From an uncultured Uliginosibacterium sp. (GTDB lineage: Bacteria > Pseudomonadota > Gammaproteobacteria > Burkholderiales > Rhodocyclaceae): a stretch of DNA of 35,545 nucleotides. The notes under the pieces were generated by a model. The model was not told the origin of the DNA and did not search any database. It saw only the letters and a list, made by a program, of their open reading frames with translations. Shown one piece after another: positions 8,747 to 35,054 of this stretch. A program made the translations under genes and the position numbers. The stretch lies in NCBI GenBank assembly GCA_945957295.1, contig CAMFLH010000016.1, forward strand, positions 1 through 35,545, written 5' to 3'. The first letter of the stretch is position 1; every line of letters starts with the position of its first letter.

Positions 8747-9856
8747 TCAGTCGCCTGCTGGCGTTAAGTACGTAGCGGCTGTCGCCTTTAGCTGTTCGGC
8801 ATAGAGATAGATGTCATCCACTGTTTCAAGTGAATGCAGCACCTCCTCCTTGCTCTCGCTAAAGACGCCCAAACGCAGCTTCTGGGTGTTGTTGAACCTC
8901 AGACGGCAGATCGGCTTGCGATTGTTGTCATCAAGCAGAATGGCGCAATAGCTCTGTGCGTCTCTCATGACGATTCGCTTGGAGGCCACCAACGTGCGCA
9001 GAATTGCTCGAACGATATGGAACCCCTCAACCTCTTCAGGACTAGTAACGATAGCGGGTTCCGCGTTTGAAGCAGGCGCTGCCGGTGCCGTAGCCTCCTG
9101 ACCGGTACTTGCAGGAACCGGATCCGGCACTGAGATCGACTCCGGGGCCATCGCTCCCTTTAAGCGTTCATTGATGCGTTCACCTATCAACTGCTCGAAC
9201 GCACGTTTCGTAATCAACGTGAACTGGTCTTTCACGGCCGGCGTAAACCGCCGACTGCCAAGCAGATCGGATGACACCAAACGCACGAAATCTTCGGATG
9301 GAGCAGCCATCCATTCAGATAGTCGCGTTTGAATAGCTCGCGTGTACTTCAGCTCATTTGCGGTTGTAAGAATAGTGTCGAGATCGAAAGCCGCCTTTGC
9401 GAACTTCTTGAGTTCCTCAACATCTCGCTCCTTGAAGTCCAGAATATTGAACTCGAAGAAGGGCTTCTCATCCATCTTGTTAGGCTGTTCGAGGTCAGTG
9501 AAGAATCGATAGACCAAGCCATTTGTTAGGACGCCAAAGCGAGCCTCCGTCACATGGAAATATCGGAACAGTTGCCCCGCGTGATTGATATTGAGTTCCG
9601 CACCGGCCTTCTTGCACTCAAAGAGAATGATCGGTTTCCCGTCTCGCAGGATTGCATAGTCGACTTTCTCGCCTTTTTTGGAGCCTACATCTGCCACAAG
9701 CTCCGGAGTGACTTCCAAGGGATCGAAGACGTTGTAGCCGAGGATCTGAATGAACGGCATAACCATCGCGTTCTTCGTCGCCTCTTCGGTCTGGATCATT
9801 GACTTGGTGGTTGAAATACGCGAAGCAAGCAGCCGCAATTGGTCAATAACGTCCAC
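8747..9856 (-). CDS. Orphan type I restriction HsdR N-terminal-domain-like protein (PD-(D/E)xK nuclease)
   Basis: 369 aa; 'KVDYAILRDGKPIILFECKKAG' matches the D...ExK nuclease core of HsdR-N domains. Visibly lower GC than its surroundings. No helicase, hsdM or hsdS next to it. Confidence 0.8.
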   Translation of the reverse strand: MDVIDQLRLLASRISTTKSMIQTEEATKNAMVMPFIQILGYNVFDPLEVTPELVADVGSKKGEKVDYAILRDGKPIILFECKKAGAELNINHAGQLFRYFHVTEARFGVLTNGLVYRFFTDLEQPNKMDEKPFFEFNILDFKERDVEELKKFAKAAFDLDTILTTANELKYTRAIQTRLSEWMAAPSEDFVRLVSSDLLGSRRFTPAVKDQFTLITKRAFEQLIGERINERLKGAMAPESISVPDPVPASTGQEATAPAAPASNAEPAIVTSPEEVEGFHIVRAILRTLVASKRIVMRDAQSYCAILLDDNNRKPICRLRFNNTQKLRLGVFSESKEEVLHSLETVDDIYLYAEQLKATAATYLTPAGD

Positions 9857-10677: not shown

Positions 10678-13600
10678 ATGCCACCCGAAACCAACCAAGA
10701 CACAGCCAACTCCGCCCCCGTCCAACGGGTCATCAAAATCCGCCGCGACTACAACAGCTGGGTCGCGCGCGAGACGATGGAGGACTATGCGCTGCGCTTC
10801 ACGCCACGCAGCTTCCGCCGCTGGAGCGAGCTGCGGGTGGCGAACACGGCGTTCGGCGTTGCATCCTTTTTGGTGCTTGAAGCGGTCGGGGCCACCATGT
10901 TGGTGCAGGCGGGCTTCATCAATGCACTGTTTGCGATCATCGCGACCGGCCTGATCATCTTCCTGGCCGGCTTGCCGATCAGTTTCTACGCCGCCCGCCA
11001 CGGGCTGGACATGGATCTGCTCACGCGTGGTGCAGGCTTCGGCTACATCGGCTCGACGATCACTTCGCTGATCTACGCCTCCTTCACCTTCATCTTCTTC
11101 GCGCTCGAAGCGGCGATCATGGCCTACGCGCTGGAGATGGCCTTCGGCATTCCGCCCGCGTGGGGCTATGTGTTGTGCGCGCTGGTGGTGATTCCACTGG
11201 TGACGCACGGCGTGACGACCATCAGCCGCTTGCAGACGCTGACGCAGCCGCTGTGGCTGCTGATGCTGGCGCTGCCCTTCGTGTTCGTGTTGTGGCAGGA
11301 GCCCACCGTGCTGGCTGGGCTGGTGAGCTACGCGGGGGTCGATGGCCGTGGCGGCAGCTTCAGCGTGCCGCTGTTCGGCGCGGCGCTGACCGTGGGCATT
11401 GCGCTGATCACGCAGATGGGCGAGCAGGCGGACTACCTGCGCTTCATGCCCGAGCGCACCGCAGTCAACCGCACACGCTGGCTCGCCGGCGTGATCGTCG
11501 GCGGGCCAGGCTGGGTGGTGCTGGGTGTCGCGAAGATGCTGGGCGGCGCGCTGCTGGCCTGGCTCGCGCTACGCAACGCAGTGCCCGCCGACAAGGCGGT
11601 CGACCCGAACCAGATGTACCTGATCGGCTTCTCGCATGTATTCAGCGCGCCGGGCTGGGCCTTGTGGGCAACGGTGCTGTTCGTGGTGATCTCGCAGTTG
11701 AAGATCAACGTCACCAACGCCTACGCCGGCTCGCTTGCATGGTCCAACTTCTTCGCGCGGCTGACGCACAGCCACCCCGGCCGCGTGGTGTGGATGGTGT
11801 TCAACACGCTGATCGCGCTGATGCTCATGGAGCTGAACGTCTTTCAGGCGCTGGGGCAAGTGCTGGGGCTGTATTCCAACATCGCGATCAGCTGGATGAT
11901 GGCGGTGGTGGCGGATCTGGTGATCAACAAGCCGCTCGGCCTGTCGCCGCCCGGTATCGAGTTCAAACGTAGCCACCTGTACGACATCAACCCCGTCGGC
12001 GTCGGCAGCATGGCGATCGCATCGGCGCTGAGCATATCGGCGTGGGTCGGGCTGCTCGGCCCCGCCCTGCAACCCTTCGCCTCCTTTATTGCGATCGGCA
12101 CGGCGATGGTGTGCTCGCCGCTGATCGCGTGGGCAACCGGCGGCAAGTACTACCTCGCGCGCAAGGCGGAACCGCGGCGGGCCGGCGCGCATCGCTGCTG
12201 CATCTGCGATCGCGAGTACGAATCGGACGACACCGCACACTGCCCCGCCTATCAGGGGCCGATCTGCTCGCTGTGCTGCTCGCTCGATGCGCGCTGCAAC
12301 GACTTGTGCAAGCCGCATGCGCGCCTGTCGTCACAATGGAACGGCGTGCTGCGCAGCCTGTTGCCACGCGCCGCACTGCCATACGTGGAAACCGGCCTCG
12401 GCCACTACCTGCTGCTGATGGCCGGCATCGTGCCCTTCCTCGCGCTGCTGATGGGCCTGCTGTACTACCACGAGTGGGTCGTCGTCGGCAGTCAGCATGC
12501 GGCCCTGCTGCCGCACTTACAGCAGAGCTTCATCAAAGCCTTCGCGGCGCTGCTGCTGGTGAGCGGCGTGGTCGCCTGGTGGATGGTACTGACGCACAAG
12601 AGCCGGCAGGTGGCACAGGAAGAATCCAACCGCCAGACCGCGGCGCTGATGCAGGAGATCGCCTCACACCAGCGCACCGATGAGCAACTGCAGAAGGCGC
12701 GACAGGTGGCCGAACAAGCCAACCTAGCGAAGAGCCGCCACATCACCGCGATCAGCCACGAGTTACGCACGCCGCTCAACAGCATCCTCGGCTACGCACA
12801 GATCCTCGATGGCGACGAGGCGATCCCGCCGCATCGGCGGCAGGCTGTGTCGGTGATCCGGCGCAGCGGCGACCATCTGCTGTCGCTGATCGAAGGCACG
12901 CTGGATCTCGCGCGCATCGAAGGCGGCAAGCTCACGCTCGACATCCGCCCGCTCGATTTCCCGGATTTCATTGCGCAGATCGTCGGCATGTTCGAGCTGC
13001 AAGCACGCAACAAGGGCCTCGCCTTCCACTTCGAACAACTCGGCGAACTGCCCCCGGTGGTGCGGGCCGACGAGAAGCGGCTGCGCCAGATCCTGATCAA
13101 CCTGCTCGGCAACGCGGTCAAGTTCACCCCGCGCGGCGAGGTGCGCTTCCGCCTGCGCTACCAGCGCGAGATGGCGCTGTGCGAAATCATCGACAGCGGC
13201 CCCGGCATCGCGCCGGACGAGATCGAACACATCTTCGAGCCCTTCGCACGTGGCCGCGCCGCGAGCCAGGGCGGCGCCGGCGGCACCGGACTGGGCCTCA
13301 CGATCACGCGCATGCTGACCGACCTGATGGGCGGCGAGCTTTCGGTGAGCAGCACGCCGGGCAGCGGCAGTACCTTCCTCGTTCGGCTCTTCGTGCCACA
13401 GGTGCACGGCCTGCAGGCAGTGCGCGCACGTGCCGACAAACTGCGCGTCGGATATGTCGGTGTGCGGCAGCGGATTCTGATCGTCGACAACGAGCGCGTG
13501 GACCGCGAACTGCTCGCCAGCATCCTTGCACCGCTGGGTTTCGAGCTCGCGCAGGCCGCAAACGGTTACGAGTGCCTGGAACGCTGGGCGGATTTCAAAC

Positions 13601-14115
13601 CGCATCTGATCTTCATGGATCTCGCGATGCCCGGCATCGACGGCTGGGAGACCCTGCGTCGCCTGCGCGCAAAGGGATGCGACGCGAAGCTCGCGGTGCT
13701 CTCAGCAAACGCCTTCGACCGCGGCCTGGAGAACGACGTCGGTTTGCCGGCTGAGGACTTCCTCGTCAAGCCGCTGAGGGTGCAGAACCTGCTCGACTGG
13801 ATCGGGAACAAGCTCACGCTCGAATGGGTCTGCGCGGACTCGACGCCAAGGCCATCTCCCTCCGCCGCTGCATCACCGGCACCGATGAACTATCCGGACG
13901 ACACAACGCTGACCGCGCTGGAATCGGCCATCACGCTCGGCTACCTGCGCGGCATTCTCGATACGCTGGCCACACTCGAGGCGCAAGACGCACGCTATGT
14001 TGAATTCGTCCGCGTGATGCGTGGCCTCGCACGACAATTCCAGTTCGAACCCATGCACGAAATCCTTCGCAAGGCGCGCAGCGCGCAGCACGGAGACGCC
14101 CATGCCGGCCATTGA
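10678..14115 (+). CDS. Hybrid sensor histidine kinase with N-terminal NCS1 (nucleobase:cation symporter-1)-like permease module, Cys-rich linker, HisKA/HATPase and REC domain
   Basis: 1145 aa. N-terminus 'RVANTAFGVASFLVLEAVGATMLVQAGF...ADYLRFMPERT...YAGSLAWSNFF' resembles NCS1/cytosine-purine permeases; H-box 'HITAISHELRTPLNSILGYAQIL'; 'NLLGNAVKFTP', 'GGTGLGLTITRML'; REC 'LIFMDLAMPGIDGWETL'. Confidence 0.93.
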   Translation: MPPETNQDTANSAPVQRVIKIRRDYNSWVARETMEDYALRFTPRSFRRWSELRVANTAFGVASFLVLEAVGATMLVQAGFINALFAIIATGLIIFLAGLPISFYAARHGLDMDLLTRGAGFGYIGSTITSLIYASFTFIFFALEAAIMAYALEMAFGIPPAWGYVLCALVVIPLVTHGVTTISRLQTLTQPLWLLMLALPFVFVLWQEPTVLAGLVSYAGVDGRGGSFSVPLFGAALTVGIALITQMGEQADYLRFMPERTAVNRTRWLAGVIVGGPGWVVLGVAKMLGGALLAWLALRNAVPADKAVDPNQMYLIGFSHVFSAPGWALWATVLFVVISQLKINVTNAYAGSLAWSNFFARLTHSHPGRVVWMVFNTLIALMLMELNVFQALGQVLGLYSNIAISWMMAVVADLVINKPLGLSPPGIEFKRSHLYDINPVGVGSMAIASALSISAWVGLLGPALQPFASFIAIGTAMVCSPLIAWATGGKYYLARKAEPRRAGAHRCCICDREYESDDTAHCPAYQGPICSLCCSLDARCNDLCKPHARLSSQWNGVLRSLLPRAALPYVETGLGHYLLLMAGIVPFLALLMGLLYYHEWVVVGSQHAALLPHLQQSFIKAFAALLLVSGVVAWWMVLTHKSRQVAQEESNRQTAALMQEIASHQRTDEQLQKARQVAEQANLAKSRHITAISHELRTPLNSILGYAQILDGDEAIPPHRRQAVSVIRRSGDHLLSLIEGTLDLARIEGGKLTLDIRPLDFPDFIAQIVGMFELQARNKGLAFHFEQLGELPPVVRADEKRLRQILINLLGNAVKFTPRGEVRFRLRYQREMALCEIIDSGPGIAPDEIEHIFEPFARGRAASQGGAGGTGLGLTITRMLTDLMGGELSVSSTPGSGSTFLVRLFVPQVHGLQAVRARADKLRVGYVGVRQRILIVDNERVDRELLASILAPLGFELAQAANGYECLERWADFKPHLIFMDLAMPGIDGWETLRRLRAKGCDAKLAVLSANAFDRGLENDVGLPAEDFLVKPLRVQNLLDWIGNKLTLEWVCADSTPRPSPSAAASPAPMNYPDDTTLTALESAITLGYLRGILDTLATLEAQDARYVEFVRVMRGLARQFQFEPMHEILRKARSAQHGDAHAGH

Positions 14116-15040
14116 TCGCCCTGGCGTCGTACTGATCGTCGACGACGTACCGGACAACCTCGCGTTGTTGCACGACGCGCTCGACGAGGCCGGCTACACC
14201 GTGCTGGTCGCGACCAATGGCCACGACGCACTGATGCGCGCGCGCCAGAGCCTGCCCGATGTGATTCTGCTCGACGCGCTGATGCCCGGCATCGATGGAT
14301 TCGAGACGGCGCGTCGGCTGAAAGCCGACTTCGCGACGCAGGCGATCCCGATCGTGTTCATGACCGGTCTCACCGAGACCGAACACGTCGTTGCCGCTTT
14401 CTCGGCCGGTGGAGCGGATTACGTTACGAAGCCGATCCGCCCGCAAGAGGTACTCGCCCGCATTGCCGCCCACATGCAGAACGCCCGCCAGATGCGACAG
14501 GCGCGCAGCGCGCTCGACGCCTTCGGTCAGGCGACGGTGGCAGTACGCGCAGCCGACGGCAAGCTGGTCTGGCAGACGCCGCTCGCACGCGAACTGCTGC
14601 ACGCCCACTTCGGCACCGAACGCGATGAGACGCCAGCGCGCCTGCTCGAATGGATCGCGGCAGCCGAGGGCGCGCGCCGTGAGGGGCGTGATCACAGCAG
14701 CTTGCTCGTCGCGAGCGGCGCCCGCCGGCTGCTCGCCACCTTCCACGACCAGACCGGCGACGATGAATGGTTGGTCGTACTGCGGGAGGAAAACGACGCA
14801 TCCGCGATCGAAGCACTGATCGCCACGTTCCGGCTGACCACCCGCGAAGCGGAAGTGCTTTACTGGGTCACGCAGGGCAAGACCAGCCCCGATATCGGGC
14901 AGATCCTCGGCAGCAGCCCGCGCACCGTAAACAAACACCTCGAACATGTTTTCGAAAAGTTGGGCGTCGAAACCCGCACTGCGGCAGCGGCCCTCGCGAT
15001 GAACCGCCTGCGCGGCACGCAACGCGCCGCCTCCACCTGA
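14102..15040 (+). CDS. Response regulator: REC domain, middle PAS-like region, C-terminal LuxR-type HTH
   Basis: ATG at 14102 overlaps the kinase gene by 14 bp. 'VVLIVDDVPDNLALLHDAL...VILLDALMPGIDGFE' REC; 'LTTREAEVLYWVTQGKTSPDIGQILGSSPRTVNKHLEHVFEKLGVETRTAAA' LuxR HTH. Confidence 0.93.
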   Translation: MPAIDRPGVVLIVDDVPDNLALLHDALDEAGYTVLVATNGHDALMRARQSLPDVILLDALMPGIDGFETARRLKADFATQAIPIVFMTGLTETEHVVAAFSAGGADYVTKPIRPQEVLARIAAHMQNARQMRQARSALDAFGQATVAVRAADGKLVWQTPLARELLHAHFGTERDETPARLLEWIAAAEGARREGRDHSSLLVASGARRLLATFHDQTGDDEWLVVLREENDASAIEALIATFRLTTREAEVLYWVTQGKTSPDIGQILGSSPRTVNKHLEHVFEKLGVETRTAAAALAMNRLRGTQRAAST

Positions 15041-18238: not shown

Positions 18239-19510
18239 ATGAGCACCCGTCGCAATTTCGTGAAAATGACTGCAATGTCCGCCGCGCTCGCCGTGTGCGG
18301 TTTCACTTCGCTGGCCGCGCAGGCGGCCGACACGATCAAGGTCGGCATCCTGCATTCGCTTTCCGGCACGATGGCCATCTCGGAAACGGCGCTGAAGGAA
18401 ACCGCGCTGATGGCGATCGAAGAGATCAACGCCAAGGGCGGCGTGCTGGGCAAGAAGCTTGAACCGGTCGTCGTTGACCCGGCCTCGAACTGGCCGCTGT
18501 TCGCCGAGAAAGCGCGTCAGCTGTTGTCGAAGGACAAGGTCGCCGTGACCTTCGGTTGCTGGACTTCGGTGTCGCGCAAGTCGGTACTGCCGGTCTACAA
18601 GGAACTCAATGGCCTCTTGTTCTACCCGGTGCAGTACGAGGGTGAAGAGCTGGAGAAGAACGTGTTCTACACCGGTGCCGCGCCCAACCAGCAGGCGATC
18701 CCGGCGGTGGAATACCTGATGAGCAAGGACGGCGGCGAGGCCAAGCGCTTCGTGCTGCTGGGTACCGACTATGTGTACCCGCGCACCACCAACAAGATCC
18801 TGCGCGCCTTCCTGAAGAGCAAGGGCGTGAAGGACGAAGACATCATGGAGGAGTACACCCCCTTCGGGCACTCCGACTATCAGACCATCATCGCCAAGAT
18901 CAAGAAGTTCGCCTCCGAGGGTAAGAAGACCGCCGTGGTATCGACGATCAACGGTGACTCCAACGTGCCCTTCTACAAGGAACTCGGCAACGCCGGCCTG
19001 AAGGCGACCGATGTGCCGGTGGTGGCCTTCTCGGTGGGTGAAGAGGAACTCCGCGGCGTCGATACCAAGCCGCTGGTGGGCCACCTCGCCGCGTGGAACT
19101 ACTTCCAGTCAATCAAGAACCCGACCAACGCCGCCTTCATCAAGGCCTACCAGGGCTGGGCGAAGAAGAACAACCTGCCGAAGGCCGACACCGTCGTCAC
19201 CAACGACCCGATGGAAGCCACCTACATCGGCATCTACATGTGGAAGCAGGCGGTCGAGAAGGCCAAGAGCACCGACGTCGACAAGGTCATCGCGGCGATG
19301 GGCGGCCAGAAGTTCAAGGCGCCGTCGGGTTTCGAGGTCGAGATGGACCCGAAGAACCACCACCTGCACAAGCCGGTGTTCATCGGCGAAGTGAAGGCCG
19401 ACGGCCAGTTCAACGTGGTGTGGAAGACCAAGGGCCCGATCAAGGCCCAGCCGTGGAGCCCGTACATCCCCGGCAACGACAAGAAGAAGGACGAGCCGGA
19501 CAGCAAGTAA
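18239..19510 (+). CDS. urtA: Urea ABC transporter, substrate-binding protein
   Basis: 'DTIKVGILHSLSGTMAISETALKETALMAIEEINAKGGVLGKKLEPVVVDPASNWPLFAEKARQLLSKDKVAVTFGCWTSVSRKSVLPV' is diagnostic of UrtA. Followed by urtBCDE. Confidence 0.97.
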   Translation: MSTRRNFVKMTAMSAALAVCGFTSLAAQAADTIKVGILHSLSGTMAISETALKETALMAIEEINAKGGVLGKKLEPVVVDPASNWPLFAEKARQLLSKDKVAVTFGCWTSVSRKSVLPVYKELNGLLFYPVQYEGEELEKNVFYTGAAPNQQAIPAVEYLMSKDGGEAKRFVLLGTDYVYPRTTNKILRAFLKSKGVKDEDIMEEYTPFGHSDYQTIIAKIKKFASEGKKTAVVSTINGDSNVPFYKELGNAGLKATDVPVVAFSVGEEELRGVDTKPLVGHLAAWNYFQSIKNPTNAAFIKAYQGWAKKNNLPKADTVVTNDPMEATYIGIYMWKQAVEKAKSTDVDKVIAAMGGQKFKAPSGFEVEMDPKNHHLHKPVFIGEVKADGQFNVVWKTKGPIKAQPWSPYIPGNDKKKDEPDSK

Positions 19511-19614
19511 GCCCGGCACGCACCTGAACGCTGCACCGCCGCGCGGTGCAGCCCTCCCGGCCGGTGTGCCCACGGGCACGCCGGCCGGCACCACGCACAC
19601 GGAACGGCCTTCCC

Positions 19615-21216
19615 ATGGTCAGACTCCTCTTTCTGCTCGCGCTGCTCGCCCGCCTCGCCTGGTCGCCGGCCTTCGCAGCGCTTGATCCAGCCCAGCTCGC
19701 GCGCCTTGGCGCGGACGATTCCGACGAGAAGATCGCTGCGATCGCAGCCCTCGCCGGCGCCGACCCCGAAGCGGTGCTGCCGATCTTCAAGGCGTTGTCG
19801 GAAGACGCGCTGTTCGTTGCGGGCGACAAGCTGTTGCGCCTGGATGGCGAAACCTACTTCGACGCCGCCACTGGCAAAGCGCTAACCGCGCCGCCCGAAA
19901 ATGCCGAAGCGGTCAGTATCAACAACCGCGTCCGCCGCACGCTGGACGCCGCACTCGCGGGCCTGCGACTTTTCGCCAGCGAGCGCGAGGTGCGACTCAC
20001 CGCCGCCAAGGACGTCAGCACCAACGCAAGCGCCGAGATCCTGCCCCTGCTCGACAAGGCCCTCGCGAAAGAGGCCGACCCGCAGATCAAACAGTTGCTC
20101 GTACTCGCGCAAGCCAAAGCCAGCCTGGGGTCGCCGGATGCCGCAGCACGCCTGAAGGCGGTCAAGTCACTCGCCGACAGTGCCGACCCGGCCGTACGCC
20201 AACTGCTCGCCGCGATGCTCGACAAGAGCAGTGGCAGCTACACCGAACCCGATGAGGCGGTGCGCATCGCCGCGGTCGCCTCGCTCACCCAGATCGAGCG
20301 CCGCATCGCGGTGGGTGAGAACCTCGGCCGCATTTTCACCGGCATCTCGCTCGGCTCGATCCTGCTGCTCGCCGCACTTGGGCTCGCGATCACCTACGGC
20401 GTGATGGGCGTGATCAACATGGCGCACGGCGAGTTGCTGATGGTCGGCGCCTACACTACCTGGGTCGTGCAAGGCCTGTTCCGCAGCTACGCGCCGCAAT
20501 GGCTCGACGCCTACGTGATCGCCGCGATCCCGCTCGCATTCATCGTTGCCGCACTGGTCGGTGTCGCGATGGAGCGCCTCGTGATCCGCCACCTCTATGG
20601 CCGTCCGCTGGAAACCCTACTCGCCACCTGGGGCCTGTCGCTGGTGCTGATCCAGGCAGCGCGCGTGATCTTCGGGCCGCAGAACCAGGAAGTGGCCAAC
20701 CCGAGCTGGATGAGCGGCGGCATCGAGCTGTATGCCGGCGCCATGCTGCCGCTGAACCGCATCGCCATCATCGGCTTCGCGCTGTTCGTGCTGCTGATCG
20801 TATGGCTGATGATGCAGAAGACGCGGCTCGGCATGTTCGTGCGTGCCGTCACGCAGAACCGTGCGATGGCCGGTTGCGTCGGCGTACCGACGCGGCGCAT
20901 CGACACGCTGGCGTTTGCCATCGGCTCCGGCATCGCGGGCCTCGGCGGCGTGGCGCTGTCGCAGATCGCCAACGTCGGGCCCGACATGGGCCAGGGTTAC
21001 ATCGTCGATTCCTTCCTCGTCGTCGTGCTCGGCGGTGTCGGCCAGTTGGCCGGTGCGGTGTGGGCAGCGCTGGGGCTGGGCATCGTCACGAAGTTCCTCG
21101 AAGGCTGGGCCGGCGCGGTGATCGCGAAGATCCTCGTGCTGCTCTTCATCATCGTCTTCATCCAGAAACGTCCGCAGGGGCTGTTCGCCCTCAAGGGCCG
21201 CTTCGTCGAGAGCTGA
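19615..21216 (+). CDS. urtB: Urea ABC transporter, permease UrtB
   Basis: Signal-like N-terminus MVRLLFLLALLARLAWSPAFA, long soluble N-terminal segment, then LivH-like permease 'GVMGVINMAHGELLMVGAYTTW'. Confidence 0.95.
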   Translation: MVRLLFLLALLARLAWSPAFAALDPAQLARLGADDSDEKIAAIAALAGADPEAVLPIFKALSEDALFVAGDKLLRLDGETYFDAATGKALTAPPENAEAVSINNRVRRTLDAALAGLRLFASEREVRLTAAKDVSTNASAEILPLLDKALAKEADPQIKQLLVLAQAKASLGSPDAAARLKAVKSLADSADPAVRQLLAAMLDKSSGSYTEPDEAVRIAAVASLTQIERRIAVGENLGRIFTGISLGSILLLAALGLAITYGVMGVINMAHGELLMVGAYTTWVVQGLFRSYAPQWLDAYVIAAIPLAFIVAALVGVAMERLVIRHLYGRPLETLLATWGLSLVLIQAARVIFGPQNQEVANPSWMSGGIELYAGAMLPLNRIAIIGFALFVLLIVWLMMQKTRLGMFVRAVTQNRAMAGCVGVPTRRIDTLAFAIGSGIAGLGGVALSQIANVGPDMGQGYIVDSFLVVVLGGVGQLAGAVWAALGLGIVTKFLEGWAGAVIAKILVLLFIIVFIQKRPQGLFALKGRFVES

Positions 21217-21218
21217 TC

Positions 21219-22423
21219 ATGCGCACGCCACTCACCATTCGATTCCTCACGGCCATGCCACGCAGCGGCTGGATCGCGATGGCGCTGTTTGCCCTCGTGG
21301 CCTGGGTGCTGGTGCCGATCGCGCACCTCGCGCTGCCCGAGGGCCACCCGCTGCATGTATCGGACTACTTCGTGACGCTGACCGGCAAGGTGCTGTGCTA
21401 CGCGGTGGTCGCGGTGGCGATGGACCTGATCTGGGGCTATGCGGGCATCCTGTCGCTCGGCCACGGGCTGTTCTTCGCGCTCGGTGGCTACGCCTTCGGC
21501 ATGTACCTGATGCGCCAGATCGGTCGCGACGGCAGCTACCACGCGGATCTGCCCGACTTCATGGTGTTCCTCGACTGGAAGGAACTGCCCTGGTACTGGG
21601 TGGGTAGCGACAGCTTCCTGTGGGCGGTGGTGCTGGTGATCGTGGTGCCTGCGGCAATTGCCTGGGTGTTCGGCTACTTCGCCTTCCGCTCGCGCATCAA
21701 GGGTGTGTATTTCTCGATCATCACGCAAGCCCTCACCTACGCCGCAATGCTGCTGTTCTTCCGCAATGAAACCGGCTTCGGCGGCAACAACGGCTTCACC
21801 GACTTCAAGCGCGTTCTCGGCTACTCGATCACCGCGCCTGAAACCCGGCTGTTGCTGTTCGGCCTCTCGGCGCTGCTGCTGATGTCCACCTTGTTGCTCG
21901 GTCGCTACCTCGTCACGTCGAAGTTCGGCCGCGTGCTCGCAGCGATCCGTGACGCTGAATCGCGCGTGATGTTCATCGGCTACAACCCGCTGCACTACAA
22001 GCTCTTCATCTGGACGCTGTCGGCCGTGCTGTGCGCGCTGGCCGGCGCCTTGTACGTGCCGCAGGTCGGCATCATCAACCCGGGTGAGATGAGCCCCGCG
22101 AACTCGATCGAGATCGCGATCTGGGCGGCGGTCGGCGGGCGCGGCACGCTGATCGGTCCGGTCCTCGGCGCCTTCACGGTAAGCCTGGCGAAGAGCTGGT
22201 TCACGGTGAGCTTCCCCGAGTACTGGCTATTCTTCCTCGGCCTGCTGTTCATCCTGGTCACGCTCTACCTGCCGGAAGGTCTGGTCGGGCTATGGCGGCG
22301 CATTCGCAGTGCCCGCGACACCACGCCTGCCGTGCCTAAAGTCGTTACGAAACCAGCCCCGCCCCCCGCGACGAACAAGACCGGCAACACAGCGCCCGAC
22401 GCCGCAGCAGAAGGAGCATCCGC

Positions 22424-22427
<4 letters not shown>
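21219..22427 (+). CDS. urtC: Urea ABC transporter, permease UrtC
   Basis: LivM-like permease 'DLIWGYAGILSLGHGLFFALGGYAFGMYLMRQIG'. Start 21219 lies directly after the urtB stop. Confidence 0.95.
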
Positions 22428-23266
<839 letters not shown>

Positions 23267-23328
23267 GCACGCCGCGCTGCGCTTGCCTCCCTTTGCCGTG
23301 GCGGCCCGCGGCCTGCTACGCTACGGGC

Positions 23329-23778
23329 ATGGTTACCGGCACCGGCAAGTTCGACTACTTCCTCTGGCGCACCTCCCTCAAGTGGGAGGATGCGGTTGCC
23401 GCGGCCGCAGCGGTGATCGAACGCTGGAACACCCTGACCCCGTTCGTGACCACCACGGACAAGCGCGACGCGGTGTGGATCGTGCGTCACGGCTCCACCG
23501 CGGCGCCCTTCTTCCAGCTACGCGAGGATTCGCTGCGCGGCTCGGTGCCGCGTGTTGGCGATCCACTCGGCGCGCTGCTGCTGCTATGTCTGGTGAGGCT
23601 GCATGGCGACAAGTTCCGCCTGACCTTTACCGATGGTCAGCCGATCGATGCTGCCAAGCTGGACCCGAACGAGCTTGCATCGCTGCTGCCCCATGCGAAT
23701 CACGCGGTGTTCCGCAAGCTGCTGATCGTTGGCAGCGAAGCACCGCCCCCGCCCAGCGAAACGCCCCCGGCGGCCTGA
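23329..23778 (+). CDS. Uncharacterised protein encoded between urtD and urtE
   Basis: ORF in the urtD-urtE gap, 149 aa from MVTGTGKFDYFLWRTSLKWEDAVAAAAAVIERWNTLTPFV...; plausible globular composition. Other frames here read as Arg-rich shadow ORFs. Confidence 0.7.
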   Translation: MVTGTGKFDYFLWRTSLKWEDAVAAAAAVIERWNTLTPFVTTTDKRDAVWIVRHGSTAAPFFQLREDSLRGSVPRVGDPLGALLLLCLVRLHGDKFRLTFTDGQPIDAAKLDPNELASLLPHANHAVFRKLLIVGSEAPPPPSETPPAA

Positions 23779-23863: not shown

Positions 23864-24556
23864 ATGCTCACCGTCTCGAACCTGAACCAGTACTACGGCG
23901 GCAGCCACATCCTGCGCGACCTCTCATTCGAAGTGCCGACCGGCAAGGTCACCACCCTGCTCGGCCGCAACGGCGTCGGCAAGACGACCCTGCTGAAGAC
24001 ACTGATGGGCTTGGTGCCCGCCAAGACCGGCAGCGTGCGCTTCGGCGATGCCGACCTCACGCGCAGCGCCTCCCATGCGAGGGTGCGCGCCGGCATCGGC
24101 TATGTGCCGCAGGGGCGCGAGATATTCCCGCGCCTGACGGTGGCGGAGAATCTGGAAATGGGCCTCGCGGTGAAGCCCGCCAGCGCACAGGTACCCGAGC
24201 GCATCTTCGAGATGTTCCCGGTGCTGCGGCAGATGATGAAGCGCCGCGGCGGCGACCTCTCCGGCGGGCAGCAACAGCAGCTCGCGATCGGCCGCGCGCT
24301 GGCCGCCGGCCCGAAGCTCTTGATCCTCGACGAACCAACCGAGGGCATCCAGCCGTCCATCATCAAGGACATCGAACGCGCGATCCGCGCGCTGGCCGAA
24401 TCCGGCGAAATGGCAATCCTGCTCGTCGAGCAGTACTACGACTTCGCCCGCTCGCTGGCCGACCAGTACATCGTGATGGAACGCGGCGAAATCGTCATGC
24501 GCGGCGAAGGCAAGAACATGGATGCCGACGGCGTGCGCGAGCGCCTGTCGGTCTGA
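23864..24556 (+). CDS. urtE: Urea ABC transporter, ATP-binding protein UrtE
   Basis: MLTVSNLNQYYGGSHILRDLSFEV...; Walker A 'GRNGVGKTT'; 'LSGGQQQQLAIGRALAAGPKLLILDEPTEGIQPSII'. Confidence 0.96.
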   Translation: MLTVSNLNQYYGGSHILRDLSFEVPTGKVTTLLGRNGVGKTTLLKTLMGLVPAKTGSVRFGDADLTRSASHARVRAGIGYVPQGREIFPRLTVAENLEMGLAVKPASAQVPERIFEMFPVLRQMMKRRGGDLSGGQQQQLAIGRALAAGPKLLILDEPTEGIQPSIIKDIERAIRALAESGEMAILLVEQYYDFARSLADQYIVMERGEIVMRGEGKNMDADGVRERLSV

Positions 24557-30964: not shown

Positions 30965-31873
30965 ATGCGGGCGAACTCCCAATCCTTGCAGAGAGACGAG
31001 AAGAGCGACTGCGTGCCGGACATCGCCCAGCGCGATGCCGGCCACGCGGCACCCTCCTTTGGCTGGCGCGCCCGCCTGGCGCTGGACTTCGAACGCCGCG
31101 GCGAACGCAGCGTGCTGGCGCGCCGCGAACACACTGGCCCGCTGCGCGTGCAGAAAGCGCTGTACCCGGAGGGCGATGCGGTCAGCCACGCGATCCTGCT
31201 GCATCCGCCGGCCGGGATCGCGGGCGGCGATTCCCTCGCGATCAACGTATCGGTCGGCGAAGCCGCCAGCGCGCTGCTGACCACCCCCGGTGCCGGCAAG
31301 TGGTATCGCGCCGACGGTCGCCCCGCTGAGCAGAAAATCAAACTGAGCATCGCTGCCGGCGCCAGTCTCGAATGGCTACCGCAGGAAAGCATGGTGTTCG
31401 ACGGCGCAGACGGCGACGCCACGCTCGACGTGCAACTGGCGGGTGACGCCTGCTTCATCGGCTTCGACCTCTGGTGCCTCGGCCGCCGCGCACGTGGTGA
31501 GCGCTTCGAACACGGCCGCATGGACACCCGCCTGCGCGTCGCACGCGATGGCCGCCCAGTCTTCGCCGAGCAGGCAAAGCTGCGCGGCGACGATGCGCGC
31601 TTCGCCTCCGCCGCGGTACTCGGCGGCGCCACCGTCTTCGGTAGCCTGCTGGCTGCCGCCCCCGACATCGATGCTTCGCTGGTGGAAGCCTGTCGACTTG
31701 AGTGCCCCACGGCCGGGCTAGGCGCGGTCACCCGCCTGCCCGGCCTGCTGGTGGCGCGCTATCGCGGCGACGACGCCGAAGCAGCGCGCCACTGGTTTGC
31801 GCGCCAGTGGGCCATTGTTCGCCCCGCCCTGCTGGGCCGCCCCGCCTGCCCGCCCCGCATCTGGAACACCTGA
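30965..31873 (+). CDS. ureD: Urease accessory protein UreD
   Basis: 'HPPAGIAGGDSLAINVSVGEAASALLTTPGAGKWYRADG' and 'WLPQESMVFDGADG' typical of UreD/UreH. Confidence 0.96.
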   Translation: MRANSQSLQRDEKSDCVPDIAQRDAGHAAPSFGWRARLALDFERRGERSVLARREHTGPLRVQKALYPEGDAVSHAILLHPPAGIAGGDSLAINVSVGEAASALLTTPGAGKWYRADGRPAEQKIKLSIAAGASLEWLPQESMVFDGADGDATLDVQLAGDACFIGFDLWCLGRRARGERFEHGRMDTRLRVARDGRPVFAEQAKLRGDDARFASAAVLGGATVFGSLLAAAPDIDASLVEACRLECPTAGLGAVTRLPGLLVARYRGDDAEAARHWFARQWAIVRPALLGRPACPPRIWNT

Positions 31874-31888
31874 TTCCGCGAGAGACCC

Positions 31889-32191
<303 letters not shown>

Positions 32192-32519: not shown

Positions 32520-33050
32520 ATGCAGATCGAGCAAGTGACGCCCGCCACCTTCGCGGCGCACCGCGAGGCGCTCGCCGCGCTGCTGATCGACGCGGTCGAG
32601 GGCGGCGCCTCGGTTGGCTTTGTACTGCCGATCAGCCGCGACACCGCGATGGCGTGGGTTGACGGCCTTGCCGATTCGATTGCCGATGGCTCCCGGCTGG
32701 TGTGGCTTGCACACGATGCGGGCAGCCCGCTCGGCACGGTGCAACTCGAACTCGCCATGCGCCAGAACGGCCGCAACCGCGCCGAAGTGCAGAAGCTGCT
32801 CGTAATGCGCAGCGCACGGCGCCAAGGCATTGCCCGCGCGCTGATGGCAGCACTGGAAGACGCCGCGCGTGGCTTGCAACGCGGCCTGCTGTTCCTCGAC
32901 ACCGAAGCCGGTTCGCCCGCCGAAGGCTTCTATGGCGCAGAAGGTTGGCAGTACGTCGGCGGCCTGCCCGAATTCGCGTGCTCGCCTGACGGCGTCTGGG
33001 CCGCCAACGCGATCTATTACAAAACCCTGTTCCGCAGGAGCACCGCATGA
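32520..33050 (+). CDS. GNAT-family N-acetyltransferase
   Basis: '[64 protein letters not shown]' is an acetyl-CoA-binding GNAT core; overlaps ureB by ATGA. Confidence 0.92.
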
Positions 33051-33352
33051 TTCCCGGAGAACTCGACACGCCCGAGGGCGACATCGAACTCAATGCCGGC
33101 CGGCCAACGATCACCCTGGTCGTCGCCAACACCGGCGACCGCCCGATCCAGGTCGGCTCGCACTACCACTTCGCCGAAACCAACGCGGCGCTGGATTTCG
33201 ACCGTGCCGCCGCGCACGGCTTCCGCCTCGATATCGCCGCCGGCACTGCGGTGCGCTTCGAGCCGGGTCAGACCCGCACGGTGACCTTGGTGGCGCTGGC
33301 GGGCGAACGTAAGGTGTTCGGCTTCCGCGGCCTCGTGATGGGAGACCTCTAA
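33047..33352 (+). CDS. ureB: Urease subunit beta
   Basis: [46 protein letters not shown]... Confidence 0.98.
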
Positions 33353-33353
33353 C

Positions 33354-35054
<1,701 letters not shown>

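Follow-up and report, generated by a model that had tools for sequence, protein, structure and literature searches.

What does a histidine kinase sense when its input domain resembles a nutrient permease? The question is raised by a locus in a 35,545-nucleotide stretch of DNA (the window) from an uncultured Uliginosibacterium sp. (assembly GCA_945957295.1, contig CAMFLH010000016.1), where a single open reading frame (ORF) encodes both. We consider it likely that the product is a receptor of transporter origin whose ligand is urea or a short amide; it would signal through its HisKA and receiver (REC) domains to an adjacent regulator controlling urea-transport (urt) and urease (ure) genes. An earlier note, made from the sequence alone, had described one continuous ORF joining an NCS1 permease-like module to a hybrid kinase, and the frame is indeed uninterrupted. 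Its parts, some predicted to be transmembrane (TM), are as follows:

10678..14115, + strand: putative NCS1-type transceptor hybrid histidine kinase, 1145 amino acids (aa); single ORF with an ATG start, architecture kept in 80/80 loci
10750..12138, + strand: NCS1-like transporter-fold module, aa ~25-487, 12-TM region (hhalign, Foldseek, AlphaFold (AF2) model)
12190..12315, + strand: eight-cysteine domain, aa 507-544 (conserved Cys motif; modelled beta-hairpin/short helix)
12385..12612, + strand: TM13/TM14 hairpin, aa ~570-645, leading into the signalling helix (hydropathy, AF2 helices)
12727..12927, + strand: HisKA, aa 684-750, phospho-acceptor H694 in the motif SHELRTP (PF00512, 64.3 bits)
13069..13392, + strand: HATPase_c, aa 798-905 (PF02518, 99.7 bits)
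13474..13797, + strand: receiver domain, aa 933-1040, with D937-N938, D981 and K1031 (PF00072, 68.6 bits)
13840..14112, + strand: C-terminal helical tail, poorly conserved (40% mean identity)

The fusion of permease and kinase is real, and reflects neither a frameshift nor an assembly artefact, both of which the earlier note had left as possibilities. All 80 loci examined in other genomes encode the same architecture (a contig end truncates 3), and matches to a profile of the N-terminal module fall nearly all within open frames of at least 890 aa among 274 genomes sampled at class level and 399 at phylum level (Pseudomonadota), 15 and 53 of which, respectively, are positive. The HisKA, HATPase_c and REC domains, as that note had proposed, are present and score far above their Pfam cut-offs; in a 22-sequence alignment the SHE-RTPL motif of HisKA and residues D937, N938, D981 and K1031 of the receiver are invariant, so that three signalling domains with intact phospho-acceptor residues stand beside a gene for a LuxR-type regulator, as in a hybrid histidine kinase. 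The D-N acidic pair of the receiver, singled out earlier as unusual, is found (VDNE) but marks the near clade, distant members carrying VDDx or IEDx, and does not distinguish the family. A histidine phosphotransfer domain in the C-terminal tail was considered and rejected, since no conserved histidine was seen in the 22-sequence alignment. Mean pairwise identity is 79% for the permease module (222 of 463 positions invariant), 81% for HisKA, 66% for HATPase and 65% for REC; the module is conserved as much as HisKA and above HATPase and REC, as expected if its pocket is under strong constraint.

Across genomes the same input module is joined variously to hybrid kinases, PAS-kinases, kinases without REC and, in one case, PAS-GGDEF-EAL domains, a variety of outputs more in keeping with a module that senses than with a transporter to which an accessory domain has been added. 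The last of these (L110:6849-10520, - strand) combines the NCS1-like module, Cys domain and TM hairpin with no kinase at all, and its product is likely, judging from its domains, to be a urea/amide-responsive c-di-GMP protein.

The N-terminal module belongs to NCS1 by homology and fold, as three independent lines of sequence comparison and modelling indicate. A Pfam scan of the module returned zero matches up to an E-value of 10, leaving it below the PF02133 gathering cut-off, NCBIfam and PDB sequence searches did not recognize it, and a PF02133 search of the home genome found nothing. Because direct sequence matching failed, we used profile-profile alignment, a bridge protein and a fold search instead. 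Alignment of the module with NCS1 proteins by hhalign gave 99.5% probability over 417 columns. The bridge, a free-standing permease (L178), shares 30% identity with the module over 487 aa and itself passes PF02133 (36.4 bits against a cut-off of 23.5). An AF2 model built from 78 diverse sequences is confident (predicted local distance difference test score, pLDDT, 88; predicted template-modelling score, pTM, 0.87), and its five best Foldseek matches in the PDB are all CodB or Mhp1 (probability 1.00, template-modelling score (target) 0.66-0.76). NCS1 structures outscore SSS structures as fold matches, and neither SSS nor STAC appeared in the Pfam scan of the sensor. Claims about fold draw on the 78-sequence model and not on an initial full-length AlphaFold one, which was built from 22 close sequences and proved too weak (pLDDT 63). 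By the earlier note's own test, the missing Pfam and NCBIfam scores would count against its NCS1 label, which nevertheless stands on homology and fold.

Which ligand such a module might hold can be approached through the pocket of CodB, where Trp108 and Phe204, aromatics conserved across NCS1, stack on the base and Thr278 and Thr279 form the Na2 site (PMC9379551). In an alignment at ~15% identity, in which the TM6 break carries a gap of one residue, the Trp108 position is F or L at residue 140 of the receptors, Phe204 falls in the gap, flanked by L243 and I244, and the Na2 pair aligns with K342 and I343; the TM6 break is shortened relative to CodB, and an invariant glutamate, E144, would lie at the Mhp1 Gln121 equivalent, as reckoned by alignment offset (Trp108+4). 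Two NCS1 features, the base-stacking aromatics and the Na2 threonines, are consequently not found in the module. Loss of the aromatic sandwich speaks against a nucleobase and would suit a small, non-aromatic ligand. A receptor for a nucleobase, hydantoin or allantoin, suggested by the NCS1 fold itself, by T137 and F140 at the positions of CodB Gln105 and Trp108, and by free-standing relatives from Actinomycetota, Moraxellaceae and Klebsiella that are annotated as 'cytosine' or 'allantoin permease', is therefore very unlikely: besides the replaced sandwich and shortened TM6 break, most linked loci adjoin urease, urea ABC transporter or formamidase genes, and no gene for purine catabolism or a hydantoinase could be recognised next to the loci inspected. 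Of the ligands listed in the earlier note, gene context and the free-standing relatives favour the urea-related ones over nucleobases, hydantoins and allantoin.

In the window, the sensor gene is followed on the same strand by its presumed partner and by urea genes:

14102..15040, + strand: partner response regulator, REC plus LuxR/GerE helix-turn-helix, 312 aa, overlapping the kinase gene by 14 nucleotides (Pfam, sequence)
18239..19510, + strand: urtA (TIGR03407, 596.9 bits against a cut-off of 492.75)
19546..21216, + strand: urtB, start uncertain (TIGR03409, 426 bits, above cut-off)
21348..22427, + strand: urtC, start approximate (TIGR03408, 444 bits, above cut-off)
22424..23266, + strand: urtD (TIGR03411, 394 bits, above cut-off)
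23864..24556, + strand: urtE (ABC ATPase sequence read directly, after urtD)
30965..31873, + strand: ureD, first gene of the urease cluster (PF01774)
31889-32191, + strand: ureA (UreA orthologue cluster)
33047-33352, + strand: ureB (UreB orthologue cluster)
33354-35054, + strand: ureC (PF00449/PF01979)

The overlapping regulator gene, like the eight-Cys domain and the TM hairpin, was absent from the earlier description; a response regulator is found at 76 of 80 loci. As the home genome holds only two strong UrtA loci, chance adjacency of sensor and urtA would be of order 1%. The second UrtA-like substrate-binding protein (G000:C182:1118-2215, 42% identity) lies on a 9.9-kb contig on which no other urt or fmd homologues were detected. 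Between urtD and urtE sits a 161-aa ORF of unassigned function (23293-23778, + strand), and shortly upstream of the sensor gene is encoded a stand-alone protein with only the HsdR N-terminal domain of type I restriction R subunits (8747-9856, - strand).

The genomic linkage of the sensor to genes for urea/amide uptake and hydrolysis extends well beyond this window. Of the 76 loci that span 19 kb or more, 51 have urt, ure or the formamidase gene fmdA near the sensor. In a phylum-wide sample the figure is 18 of 20 loci, some with only urt or only fmdA and the others with urt plus ure or fmdA, the usual layout being a divergent unit of sensor-regulator and urtABCDE followed by ure or fmdA-fmdB. 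The same layout recurs in public records from Burkholderia vietnamiensis, Mitsuaria, Klebsiella oxytoca, Rhizobium and Novosphingobium; most of these records call the sensor just 'ATP-binding protein', a label under which hundreds of bacteria carry it. The module also matches 537 plasmid records, 342 of them from Klebsiella, whose public annotation is incomplete; in one (L192:9989-14252) the Klebsiella sensor and regulator stand divergent beside a plasmid-borne urtABCDE-amiF cluster. Linkage to urea/amide genes thus recurs in alpha-, beta- and gammaproteobacteria and on mobile plasmids.

Free-standing permeases related to the module occur in the same settings. One lies inside a urease cluster on an Acinetobacter ursingii plasmid (L197:7956-9563) and another directly after ureG in Klebsiella pneumoniae (L198:7953-9560), and these two are candidate urea permeases; others adjoin fmdA in Moraxella, Tsukamurella and a further genome (G263), and in A. 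baumannii one stands divergent to the sensor, ~0.2 kb away. Identity over the module is 43-54% for the whole free-standing set and 44-45% for the permeases of the Klebsiella and Acinetobacter urease operons (WP_002916878 and WP_052024140), which share the pocket residues and the urea/amide context of the sensor but lack a kinase, have mostly four Cys or none, and read YLAD(F/Q) at the TM1 break where receptors read FL(A/V)LE. Residues T137, F140, E144, Q246, E249, Q250, K342, N344 and N347 are common to receptors and permeases, with rare exceptions. The TM1 break, in contrast, separates the two without overlap: F64, L67 and E68 in 20 of 20 receptors, against Y, D and F/Q in 8 of 8 permeases, several of these eight being closely alike. 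On balance we lean towards a branch of NCS1, so far unrecognised, that serves urea and short amides, comprising the free-standing permeases of urease and formamidase operons and a large derived receptor family, in which gain of a second Cys set and exchange of the TM1-break residues (D67 to L, F/Q68 to E) would have turned a transporter into a receptor driving kinases or c-di-GMP enzymes. No signature dividing urea-linked from amide-linked receptors emerged, since the differences track clade and offer no clean switch position; the two kinds interleave on the module tree, so ligand preference may have changed more than once.

The shared pocket also bears on whether the module still moves its ligand, the kinase reading transport instead of occupancy. 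Such a flux sensor is a sub-variant of the receptor proposed here, with which it shares part of its probability, and we regard it as possible but doubtful. The near-identity of the pocket with that of free-standing permeases favours it, as does the import of histidine by CbrA (PMC7096432, PMC13022988), but the receptors depart from the permeases precisely at the TM1 break, a urt ABC transporter or separate permease is often adjacent, and the related Ks-Amt5 has lost transport (PMC5764959).

Several observations weigh against a urea/amide receptor. At 25 of the 76 long loci, mostly from Rhodocyclales, no urt, ure or fmdA gene was found within ~10 kb. In the window itself urtA begins 3.2 kb downstream of the regulator gene, with a NUDIX gene and another opposite-strand ORF in between. 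A free-standing relative in Arthrobacter (L193:5935-7608) stands divergent to genes that read by eye as biotin synthesis (BioB/BioA/BioF/BioD), and one in Streptomyces has unrelated neighbours; the low identity of the pocket alignment belongs here too. A search of the home genome, which is 93% complete, gave no match to the formamidase FmdA; with urease present and formamidase undetected, urea would be the likeliest ligand in this organism. The loci without urea genes, about a third of the long ones, could instead mean that the sensor answers to ammonia or a similar signal and governs nitrogen metabolism in general, the urea linkage being incidental. At one of them, in Dechloromonas hortensis (L012:8034-9946), the sensor gene comes after draT and a NifH-like gene, in a setting of nitrogen fixation and not of urea. 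We give this explanation very little credence, as the linkage to urea/amide genes repeats across the proteobacterial groups named above and on mobile plasmids.

Between permease and kinase lies the Cys domain, whose pattern C-x2-C-x11-C-x7-C-x2-CC-x5-C-x3-C (aa 507-544) is kept by all 80 close relatives and by each of the distant fusions that are intact, the GGDEF-EAL form included. The domain probably binds metal; weak matches to CRIPT and RING finger 113A (E 2.4-5.4) are at chance level and were not counted. The hairpin that follows is modelled as helices at model positions 558-588 and 590-629 (aa 573-603 and 605-644), the second of which, by hydropathy and in the AF2 model, extends towards HisKA. 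Free-standing permeases mostly keep a single Cys quartet or none, and in the Arthrobacter relative nearly all Cys of the C-terminal domain are gone. Conservation of all eight Cys in every receptor examined, and the way the second set tracks with signalling, could mean that the Cys domain is the true sensor, of redox state, Zn or the Ni supply for urease, and the permease module a scaffold. We find this improbable, given that the permease pocket is extremely conserved, that formamidase-linked receptors have the same Cys set, so that nickel is not the common factor, and that one free-standing permease (L107) also carries all eight.

The anatomy of the sensor, its homology, its conservation and its gene linkage are established directly; how a urea/amide receptor of this kind might work (its ligand, binding in the pocket, which way the kinase responds, the regulon and any retained transport) we infer from sequence. 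The receptor would be an NCS1-fold permease of the urea/short-amide branch, joined to a hybrid kinase by way of the eight-Cys domain, presumed to hold Zn, and the TM13/14 hairpin. Its central pocket would bind urea, or in relatives formamide and other short amides, and binding would shift the equilibrium between the bundle, which contains TM1 and TM6, and the hash; the Cys domain and hairpin would pass this change to the HisKA signalling helix and so set autophosphorylation at H694. Phosphate would then reach the LuxR-type regulator encoded by the overlapping gene, with the cis REC domain acting as intermediate or sink, and the phosphorylated regulator would switch the neighbouring urt (and ure) genes.

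Transporter-fused kinases are already known, and the earlier comparison with CbrA holds up in that permease and kinase are fused, here with an NCS1-derived module. CbrA, CrbS and RpuS are SLC5/STAC histidine kinases (PMC7096432, PMC5715377, PMC9100948, PMC13022988) that share with the sensor a LeuT-fold permease module on a (hybrid) histidine kinase in a nutrient-linked two-component system; the sensor differs in its NCS1 rather than SLC5/SSS module, in its linkage to urea/amide genes and in having the eight-Cys domain and extra TM hairpin in place of the STAC helical bundle. In Na+-independent CbrA, K196 occupies the Na2 site (PMC13022988), a feature that K342, aligned at low identity with an Na2 threonine, appears to recall. 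Ks-Amt5, an ammonium-transporter histidine kinase (PMC5764959), is likewise a permease turned receptor with HisKA for a small nitrogen nutrient, but it has the Amt fold, neither REC nor Cys domain, and is one characterised anammox protein, whereas the sensor family is widespread in Pseudomonadota. With CodB and Mhp1 (PMC9379551) the sensor shares the fold, the D-x-x-R motif after TM6 (D252, R255) and the TM8 tyrosine (Y349), and differs from them in its replaced stacking aromatics and Na2 threonines, its fused output domains and its lack of a Pfam or NCBIfam match. We found in the open-licence literature no description of an NCS1-kinase fusion, and none of free-standing permeases like these within urease operons; a genome paper notes an unnamed hybrid kinase and LuxR regulator adjoining urtABCDE (PMC13296017).

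How permeases become receptors is an open question, few transporter-kinases having been characterised (the SLC5 type and Ks-Amt5). In the present case receptors and their likely permease relatives still exist side by side, their pockets are almost identical and their differences few, and the switch from transporter to receptor is thereby open to direct test. The proposal would also supply a dedicated urea/amide sensor for clusters that lack a named regulator, such as the urt-amiF (UTS) cluster of Klebsiella plasmids, discussed without naming one (PMC13060141), and it calls into question the names 'cytosine permease' and 'allantoin permease' given to proteins within urease operons.

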